Source: Planctomycetota bacterium (lineage in GTDB: Bacteria; Planctomycetota; JACOTG01; JAJDCM01). From it: a stretch of DNA of 54,712 nt. The notes under the pieces were generated by a model that saw only the letters and a program-made list of their open reading frames with translations, did not search any database and was not told where the DNA came from. Made by a program: the position numbers and the translations under genes. Every line of letters begins with the position of its first letter. Position 1 is the first letter of the stretch. Location of the stretch: the NCBI GenBank assembly GCA_029260825.1, contig JAJDCM010000350.1, positions 1 to 54,712 on the forward strand. The letters are read 5' to 3'. Positions 12,510 to 15,835 of this stretch are shown in pieces.

Positions 12510-13643
12510 TCAATACCTCGCCTTCACCCACCTGCGCCACTCGTTGTCGAGTTCGGCGGGAAGCCAGTTATAGATCGATTGGACGGCTTCGAGTGAATCC
12601 GTTCCGCCCTTGATCCGGCCGACTAGATCTCGAAACTGCTCGATGTTGTAGTTCATCAGAAAATCAACATAAGCAAAAGAAAAAGCCATCTCTCGGTAAG
12701 TGTAGGCATTGATATCTTTGCCATAGAAATCGACAAACGCGAGTGGATTCCGCGACCCGGCCTCTTTCTTGACTTTGGACTTCCAGGAATTTCCACCCTG
12801 GAAACGATCGTCGGGCGCAACTTCGACGAAACAGAAGTTCCGATTCGCGCGATAATACTTATGTTCCATGAAGTGGGCAAAGCCGCAGACCAGCCAGGTC
12901 GGCGACTTTCTAGCTACCATGCACTTCTCCATCAGAAGATGAGCGAAGTTGTGGATCACCGTCTGCTCGAACTCATCCCCGCTTTGGCCCGCTTTTCGAG
13001 CACCCGCAAACCAAGAACGCTGGTTTCCCGTGCTCTTGTGGCCTCCAGCGTTGCCTCCTCCCGAACCGTAGTAATGCTTGAGAAAACTGGAGAGAACGGA
13101 AACGTCTTCGAGCAAGAAGACGGTGTGCCTGGGATTAACGATTTCCTCTTCGATATCGAAGATCTTGGTGTAGTCCTGAAAAACTTCTTCCAGTCGTTTG
13201 GCGAAATGATGGGCACCCCGGTGAAGGTCCACCCGTCTTTTCTTGACGGACATCTTGGGAATGGCATAGAACACCCGGACGTTCTCGGTCTGAACAAGAA
13301 CTCCTTTTTCGCCACAGGCATCTTCGAACTCGCGGCAAAGAGCGATCCACTGCTTGATTTCTAGAGTTGCATTGTCGAACTCGTATTGGGCTTCTTCGCT
13401 CTTGCATCGATTACAGACGGTAAAGCCAACCCCACCGCATTCGTCATCCGCCTTGTAGTAGTGAGTACAATCGAGAACATGGGTCTCGGCCTTCGGGACG
13501 GTGCATTCCAGCTTCCCGGTTCTCTTGCACTTGAAGCACCCGATCCTCTTTCCGGACTCCTGGGATAAAAGTGGACACGAAAAGCCAAACAGTGCCAGAA
13601 GCGCGGCTCCGCAAATCCAGTTCACTCGATGCCTGGTCCTCAT
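12510..13643 (-). CDS. Secreted zinc-ribbon protein with degenerate gluzincin-type protease domain
   Basis: 377 residues from ATG 13643, preceded by AGGAAGAG. The frame is open further upstream, but the signal peptide MRTRHRVNWICGAALLALFGFSCPLLSQ fits this start. Residues 36-80 contain paired cysteines (CFKC, C47, C59, C69, CNRC 77-80), like a DnaJ-type zinc-binding segment. The C-terminal half resembles secreted peptidase_MA-like proteins: HNFAH at 231-235 and WLVCGFAHFME at 250-260, where the family has HExxH and a downstream Glu ligand. The catalytic Glu is Asn here, so metal may bind but proteolysis is doubtful. It is followed 3 nt later by the HEAT/vWA gene. Function unknown. Confidence 0.7.
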   Translation of the reverse strand: MRTRHRVNWICGAALLALFGFSCPLLSQESGKRIGCFKCKRTGKLECTVPKAETHVLDCTHYYKADDECGGVGFTVCNRCKSEEAQYEFDNATLEIKQWIALCREFEDACGEKGVLVQTENVRVFYAIPKMSVKKRRVDLHRGAHHFAKRLEEVFQDYTKIFDIEEEIVNPRHTVFLLEDVSVLSSFLKHYYGSGGGNAGGHKSTGNQRSWFAGARKAGQSGDEFEQTVIHNFAHLLMEKCMVARKSPTWLVCGFAHFMEHKYYRANRNFCFVEVAPDDRFQGGNSWKSKVKKEAGSRNPLAFVDFYGKDINAYTYREMAFSFAYVDFLMNYNIEQFRDLVGRIKGGTDSLEAVQSIYNWLPAELDNEWRRWVKARY

Positions 13644-13820
13644 GGTGGACTCTTCCTTTCTCGAAAGGATCAGTGACTCACTAGCTTTCCCCATACTAAC
13701 CCCAATTGCCCCCACTCTCGAGACTCTTGTGGGATGATTGCTAACGAATGAAGGACGAGCCAACGGGGCTCGAGCGGGAAAAAGGAGGAAAAGATCATGT
13801 CAGCGGAGGGAATGAAGACG

Positions 13821-13854
13821 AGGCCAGAGAGCTGAATCCAGCCCTCTGGCCTCG
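13821..13854 (-). terminator. Strong hairpin downstream of the Sec-thioredoxin gene
   Basis: GAGGCCAGAG at 13821-13830 pairs perfectly with CTCTGGCCTC at 13845-13854. An inner GCTG/CAGC stem closes an AATC loop. It lies 38 nt past the stop at 13892 of the minus-strand gene. There is no T-run, so it is a terminator or a 3'-end-protecting hairpin. Confidence 0.6.
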
Positions 13855-13891
13855 GTGAACCTTCTCTTGTCGTGTTGTCACGAAGCGTGAC

Positions 13892-14707
13892 TCAATAATC
13901 TTTGGGCGCCGTTTTCCATTTCTTGAGCGTCCGCTCCAGTTTCCCACTCAATGATCTTGCCGTTCGCTTTCCGGAGATCTTCTGAAGAGGGCTTGTGTAC
14001 GGAGAATCAGCCGACACATCAACAACCATGATGTTGATCCCTTGGGTGACTCGATATTGCTTGCAGAGTTCGCAATCTCTTTTCACCACGTGTCGATGGA
14101 GAACGAACTGATCGATAAGAGTCTTGAGCTCTTTGTCAGCAAGCGCGTGCTCGGTGACCATGGAGTTCTTTTTTTCGTCCGTGAGGACGACCAACAGAAG
14201 CTTTCCTTCTTTTTTCGCCTGTCTTGCAGCCGCATCGTGGGTCTCGACCCAGGGCAGCTTGGCGGGGCCGGAAACAGCCTGCTTTCGACCGGGATACTTC
14301 CTGGCAATGTCTTCGATCTGCTTGGCGACACCGCTCGCACCCCGATCTTTCAGTTTCTCGACGACCTCACCTCGAGGGTCAACGAAGATCACGGTCGGGT
14401 AACCTCGAACTCCATATTTGGAGCTGACGTCTTTGTTCTTTCGACCCCAGTTGCAGTCAACAAGGATCGGAACGATTCTTTTGGACACCTTCACAACTTT
14501 GTCATCGGAGAACGCACCGCTCTCCAGTCTTGCGCAAGGGCCTCAGCCATCGCTCGTAAAATAGAGCATCATTCCCTTGCCGCTTTTCTTGGCCATTGCC
14601 ATGGCGGCCTCGGGATCTTCAAGCCAGCGGATCTTGCCGCCCTTGGCCGAGGCACTAACCCCGAGGGAAAGCACCATCGTGAAAAGAATTGTGACTCGAG
14701 CGAGCAT
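13892..14707 (-). CDS. Secreted thioredoxin-like selenoprotein with UGPC active site
   Basis: Read through an in-frame TGA (14543-14545), this is one 271-residue protein. It starts at ATG 14707, preceded by AGAGGAGGCGAAG, with signal peptide MLARVTILFTMVLSLGVSASA. The first thioredoxin fold is MMLYFTSDG-U55-G-P-C58-ARLE, then VPILVDCNWG and the cis-Pro segment GVRGYPTVIFVD. The TGA sits exactly where thioredoxins have the nucleophilic Cys of CGPC, and the frame stays open for 216 codons after it. A second thioredoxin-like domain (about 150-271) lacks the redox pair at the usual site. A SECIS-like hairpin follows the TGA. A conventional caller would split it into an 82-residue fragment and a 200-residue fragment. 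The likely role is redox or disulfide chemistry in the periplasm. The alternative is a nonsense mutation or sequencing error, which the coincidence of position makes unlikely. Confidence 0.85.
14507..14525 (-). promoter_or_regulatory. Putative bacterial SECIS element
   Basis: On the coding strand, GGAGAGC pairs with GTTCTCC (7 bp, one G-U), closing a 5-nt apical loop GGTGC. The loop begins 24 nt after the TGA. The compact stem, the loop starting with GG and containing GGU, and the distance (bacterial SECIS loops lie about 16-37 nt after UGA) fit the SelB-binding element. Confidence 0.7.
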
Positions 14708-14740
14708 CTTCGCCTCCTCTTTCAATAGCTGTGTGGAGCA

Positions 14741-14785
14741 GAACCCTATGTACATTAAGGTAGGTCCTGAGGGTTCCTCTGTCAA
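14741..14785 (-). promoter_or_regulatory. Candidate promoter and inverted repeat before the Sec-thioredoxin gene
   Basis: On the minus strand a perfect -35 TTGACA (14780-14785) is followed after 17 nt by a weak -10 TACCTT (14757-14762). A 7-bp inverted repeat, GAACCCT (14741-14747) and AGGGTTC (14770-14776), straddles the -10 and spacer, where an operator would act. This suggests the selenoprotein can be transcribed apart from the upstream oxidoreductase gene. Confidence 0.35.
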
Positions 14786-14812
14786 CACCATGGGCTCTTC
14801 ACAGCAGAACCA

Positions 14813-15835
14813 CTATCTGCGGGACAGGTTCTCGATCACGATTTTCCCGAAGTGATTGCCCGACTCGAGGGCGGAAAGCGCCTCGGGGAGCCGCTCGAAC
14901 CCCAATCGAGAGTCGATCTGGGGCCGTATTTTCTTTTCCTTGATGAACTGAAGAAGATCCAAAAAGGCCGACTTCGAGTCCACCATGATCCCCGCGACTC
15001 GAATCCGCTTCATGAGGATCGGTGCGATATTTACCTCCCCGACCAGGCCTGTGAGAGCACCCAGCATCCCGATCGTACCCCCTCCCCGCACACAACGAAG
15101 AGACTGACTCAGGGTCCCCACTCCACCATTTTCAACCACGAGATCGACGCCCTTCCCCTCCGTCAATCTCAACACTTCCTTCTCCCATTTCGGGTTGGAC
15201 CGATAATTAATGACATCGTCTGCTCCCAGCTCCTTGGCTCGAGCAAGTTTTTCGTCGCTGCTACTGGTCACAAGAACTCGAGCCCCCAGCGCCTTTCCAA
15301 GCAGAAGAGCGAAGATGGAGACCCCCCCGGTTCCCAGGGTGAGCACGGACTGCCCTGCCTCGATCTTTCCTTCCGTTCTGAGAGCCGACCAGGCAGTAAG
15401 TGCAGCTATCGGGAGAGTGGACGATTCGGCAAAATCAAGCCCCTCGGGAAGGGGTACCAGAGCATCCTCCGAAAGGACAACCTCATCCGCTGCCAGGCCG
15501 GGGCCAGGCGTGCCGAGGGTCGTTGTCGTATATTCACTTCGAAAGGGGCCCTTTCGCCAACCCACGACAAATTGGGTAACCGCTCGATCTCCGATCTTCC
15601 AGGAAGTCACCCCCTCGCCGACCGCTGTGACCTCTCCTGCACCATCGCTGACAGGCGTGCAAGGCAGCGCTAGTCGGGGGTTGTAAGCCCCGTTCACGAC
15701 GAGAAGATCCCGGTAGTTGAGACTGAAGGAGCGAGGAGCGAACCGCACCTCATTCGGGCCGGGAGATGGCAGGGGAACATCATCTCGTAGGATGAGGTTC
15801 GAAACTCCGAATTGACCGAGCTCATACTGGCGCAT
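14813..15835 (-). CDS. Zinc-independent medium-chain NAD(P)-dependent oxidoreductase
   Basis: 340 residues from ATG 15835 (MRQYELGQFGVSNLILRDDV), 13 nt after the stop of the potassium-channel gene. It shows the medium-chain dehydrogenase/quinone reductase pattern: a GroES-like N-terminal domain (VRFAPRSFSLNYRDLLVVNG, PVSDGAGEVTAVGEGV), then a Rossmann fold with LTLGTGGVSIFALLLGKALGARVLVTSSSDEKL. The catalytic zinc Cys usual before YRD is Asn, and the four-cysteine structural zinc loop is absent, so it is probably of the quinone-oxidoreductase type. The substrate is unknown. Cytoplasmic. Confidence 0.82.
   Translation of the reverse strand: MRQYELGQFGVSNLILRDDVPLPSPGPNEVRFAPRSFSLNYRDLLVVNGAYNPRLALPCTPVSDGAGEVTAVGEGVTSWKIGDRAVTQFVVGWRKGPFRSEYTTTTLGTPGPGLAADEVVLSEDALVPLPEGLDFAESSTLPIAALTAWSALRTEGKIEAGQSVLTLGTGGVSIFALLLGKALGARVLVTSSSDEKLARAKELGADDVINYRSNPKWEKEVLRLTEGKGVDLVVENGGVGTLSQSLRCVRGGGTIGMLGALTGLVGEVNIAPILMKRIRVAGIMVDSKSAFLDLLQFIKEKKIRPQIDSRLGFERLPEALSALESGNHFGKIVIENLSRR

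Follow-up and report, generated by a model that had tools for sequence, protein, structure and literature searches.

A probable two-domain, thioredoxin-like selenoprotein with a U-G-P-C active site in a Planctomycetota bacterium

The window analysed here, by which we mean the whole stretch of 54,712 nucleotides, carries on its minus strand (13892..14707) what is very probably a selenoprotein gene of 271 codons plus a stop, with UGA predicted to be read as selenocysteine (Sec) at codon 55. The frame begins with an ATG at 14707, meets an in-frame TGA at 14545-14543, the putative Sec55 of a U-G-P-C motif, and continues through 216 sense codons to a TGA stop at 13894-13892. Five nucleotides upstream of the ATG lies an AGGAGG (14713..14718), a possible ribosome-binding site, and 3' of the gene the hairpin search gave a terminator-like hairpin of 16 pairs (13819..13854), both on the minus strand; three such hairpins fall within 13700-14900, compared with a mean of 1.4 in shuffles. 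Residues 1-21 (14645..14707), which end in A-S-A, form a probable signal peptide by inspection of the sequence, and the AlphaFold2 model has a pLDDT below 50 across them. Read from this N-terminus, export of the protein (secreted or periplasmic) seems probable.

The product of the next gene downstream on the same strand (12510-13763) looks secreted, is rich in Cys over a stretch close to its N-terminus and matches Peptidase_MA_2 below threshold (22.4 bits against a cut-off of 32.4). Five neighbours of the gene in the window had no match at E 1e-4 among the loci then fetched, of which only those of the two closest relatives (L051 and L052) included flanks of several kb. Within the window, Rfam gave nothing at gathering score and ARAGORN gave no tRNA. 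When TGA codons in motif-like settings were looked for by eye across the window, only the one at 14545 stood out.

The earlier note had claimed that the frame stays open past the TGA, and re-reading the sequence bears this out for all 216 codons down to 13892. It had also argued that a stop mutation followed by no decay downstream is very unlikely, a view strengthened by two results: the part after the TGA remains open in none of 20,000 mononucleotide shuffles, and the TGA is aligned with a TGA in three relatives (L051, L052 and L023). Downstream of the UGA, the differences between the window gene and these relatives are most frequent at third codon positions, with counts at positions 1/2/3 of 84/50/124 for L051, 82/66/126 for L052 and 101/88/125 for L023. 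The mechanical list of open reading frames covers only the part after the UGA (13892-14494), and routine annotation can thus be expected to miss the active site.

A scan of contigs gave two relatives that share the position of the UGA: L051 (55% identity), also present in a genome of the same order as that of the window (G002), and L052 (46%), also present in another genome of the phylum (G187). Of 392 genomes of the phylum searched with a profile built from four members, 77 have a match at E ≤ 1e-18. The profile search lists 98 matches, 30 of which were taken as loci; to these were added 18 hand-picked stretches around listed matches, most of them containing TGA and at least two overlapping other loci, and two stretches of the window's own genome, the remainder of the fetched set coming from two earlier searches. 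Duplicates were dropped (L022, L053, L055, L056, L054, L066, L068, L070, L074, L077, L081 and L091), and some loci, such as L079, L046, L036 and L073, contribute two or more rows.

The 78 non-redundant fetched matches have U at residue 55 in 48 cases and C in 25, with A, S, G and H once each and one match unaligned; window-like and TGA-bearing matches are over-represented in the fetched set, so that 48 to 25 cannot be taken as a ratio for the phylum. The 27 fetched rows with two domains have U in 22, C in 2, and A, G and an unaligned residue once each. It is clear that the UGA is aligned with the redox Cys of homologues, as in bacterial selenoproteins generally, and this upholds the earlier claim that U takes the place of the first Cys of CGPC; the comparison with Cys orthologues that the note had proposed thus came out in its favour. 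Row counts of this kind are not independent because the rows are related by descent. A quick tree over 109 columns needs 12 changes of the Sec label, but 35 of its 74 inner branches are open and the starred branches force only 4 changes, which leaves the number of Sec/Cys switches uncertain.

Several members of the fetched set depart from the common motif. Three two-domain proteins (L061, L095 and L089) have C-U-x-x-T or U-x-x-T in place of UxxC, and in one genome (G304) one such protein stands in tandem with a UxxS copy. One of the two C rows in the two-domain set, L040 (G013:C10), has its UGA three residues on, in C-G-A-U, and carries in the same open frame an extra C-terminal stretch, which we take to resemble the YbhB/PEBP family. 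L029, L034, L050 and, from the window's own genome, L101 (contig C396) make up another Thioredoxin_7-like group with UGA, in which the motif is F-T-R-S-Y-x-x-U-x-P-C or similar.

Domain 1 of the window protein (14297..14629, minus strand) is a thioredoxin fold of the Thioredoxin_7 type that holds the U-G-P-C; it belongs to Pfam PF13899 with 62 bits against a gathering cut-off of 27, the match spanning the UGA, and is seen in the structure model as well. Cys58, the last residue of the motif, is kept in 21 of the 27 two-domain rows, and the three closest members all have U-x-P-C. P104 of G-Y-P-T (14396..14398) occupies the cis-proline position, where P is found in 25 of the 27 rows; its cis state we assume from what is known of the thioredoxin fold. 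C85 (V-D-C, 14453..14455) follows the third strand of this domain and is C in 16 of the 27 rows.

Domain 2 (13910..14260, minus strand) is predicted by the model to be a second thioredoxin-like fold and lacks a canonical active site; Pfam gave no match when 13892-14275 was searched alone. It contains a C212-x-x-C215 pair (14063..14074) away from the canonical active-site place, which the window protein shares with L051 and L052 and which the other 24 of the 27 rows lack. The earlier description of this domain as having no redox pair consequently fits those 24 rows and fails for the window protein and its two closest relatives.

The AlphaFold2 model, computed from three sequences, shows two thioredoxin folds with a mean pLDDT of 80 and a pTM of 0.46, and because of this pTM the arrangement of the domains is unsure. 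The top Foldseek ranks are PDI, ERp44 and QSOX1, while DsbH and the DsbD gamma domain appear further down within the first 50; whole-chain TM-scores to PDI, ERp44, QSOX1 and others are about 0.3, for a model whose domain arrangement is uncertain. For domain 1 the sequence profile search agrees with Foldseek. A redox-active thioredoxin domain joined to a redox-inactive one is the layout of PDI and QSOX. The architecture, which had been called unusual, does have the second thioredoxin-like fold in the model, and is less unusual than supposed given this layout and the Foldseek ranking.

Downstream of the UGA lies a SECIS-like hairpin (14506..14526, minus strand) of 9 bp with a 3-nt loop, GUG, and a free energy of −11.2 kcal/mol, the distance from UGA to loop being 25 nt. 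The bacterial SECIS model, as given in a figure legend of PMC13188914, places the loop 16-37 nt away, with a G in the first two loop bases and an energy of −7.5 kcal/mol or lower, and the window hairpin conforms to it. So do 33 of 48 UGA rows (15 miss), compared with 1 of 24 Cys rows and 2 of 5 rows of other kinds (L040 and L038); the background was 55 of 1319 codons sampled from 23 hand-chosen long open reading frames of the window, and 11 of the 149 Cys codons of those frames. Identical downstream stretches were counted once in these tests. In codon shuffles that preserve the protein, p fell below 0.05 in 20 of 48 UGA rows and stayed at or above 0.05 in 28, as against 0 of 25 rows of the Cys class, where L040 is placed with Cys in this test and among the others in the test of the SECIS model.

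For the window hairpin the same shuffles give p 0.013. In the two closest relatives the hairpin barely reaches −7.5 kcal/mol and is no better than the codon shuffles (p 0.19 for L052 and 0.32 for L051), and the whole 51-nt stretch is no more stable than shuffles (z 0.11). The pairing register varies among members (for example between the window gene, L051 and L058) while the G-rich tip stays in about the same place, as would be expected under a constraint on the RNA. A Cys homologue with TGC, L087 (G187:C105), nevertheless has a SECIS-like hairpin of −11.9 kcal/mol, and is probably a former Sec gene with a recent Sec-to-Cys change.

The genome of the window (8.37 Mb in 425 contigs, 90% complete) contains the Sec machinery, the search that the earlier note had recommended returning all of its parts: selA (546.5 bits); a tRNA-Sec about 110 nt after it (71.5 bits), called by ARAGORN as tRNA-SeC with anticodon tca (UCA); selB (373.3 bits over 579 of 581 profile positions); and selD (371 bits), which has a UGA of its own. 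A second match over the tRNA-Sec cut-off, on contig C166 (49.1 bits), is a serine tRNA according to ARAGORN and was set aside. Of the 35 genomes that have UGA copies, counting that of the window, 34 show SelA over its cut-off, and the remaining one (G279) has a fragment at a contig start. This compares with 25 of 35 comparison genomes (Fisher p 0.006), which were hand-chosen for listed matches without TGA, though a weaker match in one of them, G017, does contain TGA.

The window's own genome has TGA in four more Thioredoxin_7 matches (contigs C364, C396, C309 and C407, those of C309 and C407 being under the Pfam cut-off), and in all four the TGA lies within an active-site-like motif, which makes UGA usual in such proteins of this genome. 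The protein on C309 (L114) scores 345.8 bits with NF041383 (cut-off 275) and is a VPGUxxT type 2 selenoprotein with the variant V-P-G-U-S-T-C. That on C407 (L115) scores 305.8 bits with the Trx7/PDZ model NF041199 (cut-off 300) and carries two UGA codons, in F-R-U-E-V-U-K-D-C, where the listed motif is CxxU.

On these results, we consider it very likely that the product is a thiol-disulfide oxidoreductase, secreted or periplasmic and built of two thioredoxin folds in tandem, with UGA decoded as Sec by way of the hairpin. A Cys or Trp codon might instead have turned into TGA, in a pseudogene or through a sequencing error, with the remainder of the gene not yet decayed. TGA is one base away from TGC, TGT and TGG, and a draft genome in 425 contigs leaves room for error, yet the same TGA recurs in independent genomes at 30-55% protein identity, an indirect answer to the resequencing condition set in the earlier note, U predominates in the two-domain rows, and both hairpin and Sec machinery are present, all of which make this explanation highly improbable. 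The open frame by itself says nothing about the residue inserted, and UGA could be read as something other than Sec, through reassignment to Trp or Gly or through plain read-through. We give this very little credence as well: no Trp occurs at position 55 among the 78 fetched matches, UGA ends the window gene itself (in two relatives the stop, a few residues away at most, is TAA or TAG) and also the neighbouring frame 12510-13763, and tRNA-Sec, SelA, SelB and SelD are all in the genome.

Acceptance of Sec would still allow a protein that is no oxidoreductase of substrates of its own and serves instead in selenium storage or delivery, or as a docking protein whose active site drifts. Such drift might be read from relatives that have lost one residue of the pair (U-x-x-S, U-x-x-T, U-x-x-D, A-x-x-C and G-x-x-C). 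The retention of C58 and of the cis-proline position in most two-domain rows, together with U-x-P-C in the three closest members, argues the other way, and we regard this alternative as unlikely.

Set against the selenoprotein families on record, the gene very probably encodes a genuine selenoprotein, a variant at family level of a kind already known, and the computational support is strong. To our knowledge, known Sec thioredoxins are single-domain, cytoplasmic proteins, whereas the window protein probably starts with a signal peptide and has two domains. They share with it the fold and the UxxC motif with the first Cys replaced (PF00085, in Table 1 of PMC13188914). Table 1 of that paper (2026) is an inventory of 119 families; it has no UxxC entry under PF13899, and "PF13899" does not occur in the accessible text. 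The nearest UxxC entry there is a PF13098 thiol:disulfide interchange protein, also in PMC9312934, and since the window protein passes PF13098 as well (47.4 bits against a cut-off of 27), a lenient reading of the available entry could place it there. Compared by Pfam model and motif, it differs from that entry in being a stand-alone two-domain protein whose best Pfam match is PF13899. Planctomycete selenoproteins as such are on record in the accessible part of PMC4807772.

At the level of NCBIfam, no model reached its cut-off for the window protein or three relatives. The best match is TsoB (NF045694), a rhodanese/DsbD fusion-like selenoprotein, with 56.8 bits against 805, and it covers only the C-terminal thioredoxin part of that model (profile positions 439-554 of 572). 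The Trx7/PDZ family NF041199 is likewise a Thioredoxin_7-type selenoprotein, but the window protein scores 25.6 bits against 300 and has no PDZ among its Pfam matches; moreover its Sec would be the first redox residue, while that of the CxxU motif, listed as such in the accessible text of PMC13188914, is the second. With the VPGUxxT type 2 model NF041383 it scores 32.9 bits against 275. Among solved structures, domain 1 resembles DsbH and the DsbD gamma domain in fold and sequence, and in fragments of PDI, ERp44 and QSOX1 a redox thioredoxin fold precedes another thioredoxin fold, as is predicted for the window protein; all of these structures have Cys rather than Sec. In the open-licence literature, preprints aside, we recognised no paper as describing the two-domain family.

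The mechanism we envisage would have SelB and tRNA-Sec decode the UGA at 14543-14545 as Sec, guided by the hairpin 25 nt downstream, after which the protein would be exported (secreted or periplasmic). The Sec55 selenolate would then attack a substrate disulfide and Cys58 would resolve the resulting Se-S bond, while domain 2, by analogy with the b domain of PDI, may act as a substrate-binding or docking domain. Re-reduction could possibly proceed through the one DsbD found in the genome, itself UGA-bearing (UTNC).

This DsbD, the genome's one DsbD membrane domain at E ≤ 0.001 (L117:799-3267, on contig C364), has a UGA in the active site of its C-terminal thioredoxin part, GFTUTNC. Matches to it occur in 29 of the 35 UGA genomes, the window's own included (E ≤ 1e-30). 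Twenty DsbD loci were fetched. In 17 of them, that of the window's genome included, a stretch matching the C-terminal domain carries UGA at the active-site position, and the other 3 have Cys alone; L128, with one UGA and one Cys stretch, is counted among the 17, and in L134 and L137 the C-terminal stretch was matched alone and may sit outside the protein with the membrane part. In G187 the gene for a Gly-form two-domain relative is followed, after 120 nt and in the same orientation, by that of a UGA-bearing DsbD. Taken at the level of sequence, this suggests that DsbD may reduce the family of the window protein.

For the family, the analysis describes two-domain proteins that are mostly predicted to carry Sec in the fetched set, and a range of naturally occurring active sites with Sec, Cys, Ala or Gly which, with the hairpin-bearing Cys copy L087, offers material on the exchange of Sec and Cys. 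Together with the UGA-bearing DsbD, this family would point to selenium-based redox chemistry outside the cytoplasm. We raise tentatively the idea that in many Planctomycetota a Sec-containing DsbD may pass electrons across the membrane to a set of secreted Sec thioredoxin-like proteins, in an extracytoplasmic Sec-to-Sec relay on the reducing side of disulfide chemistry, of which the window gene would represent the two-domain branch.
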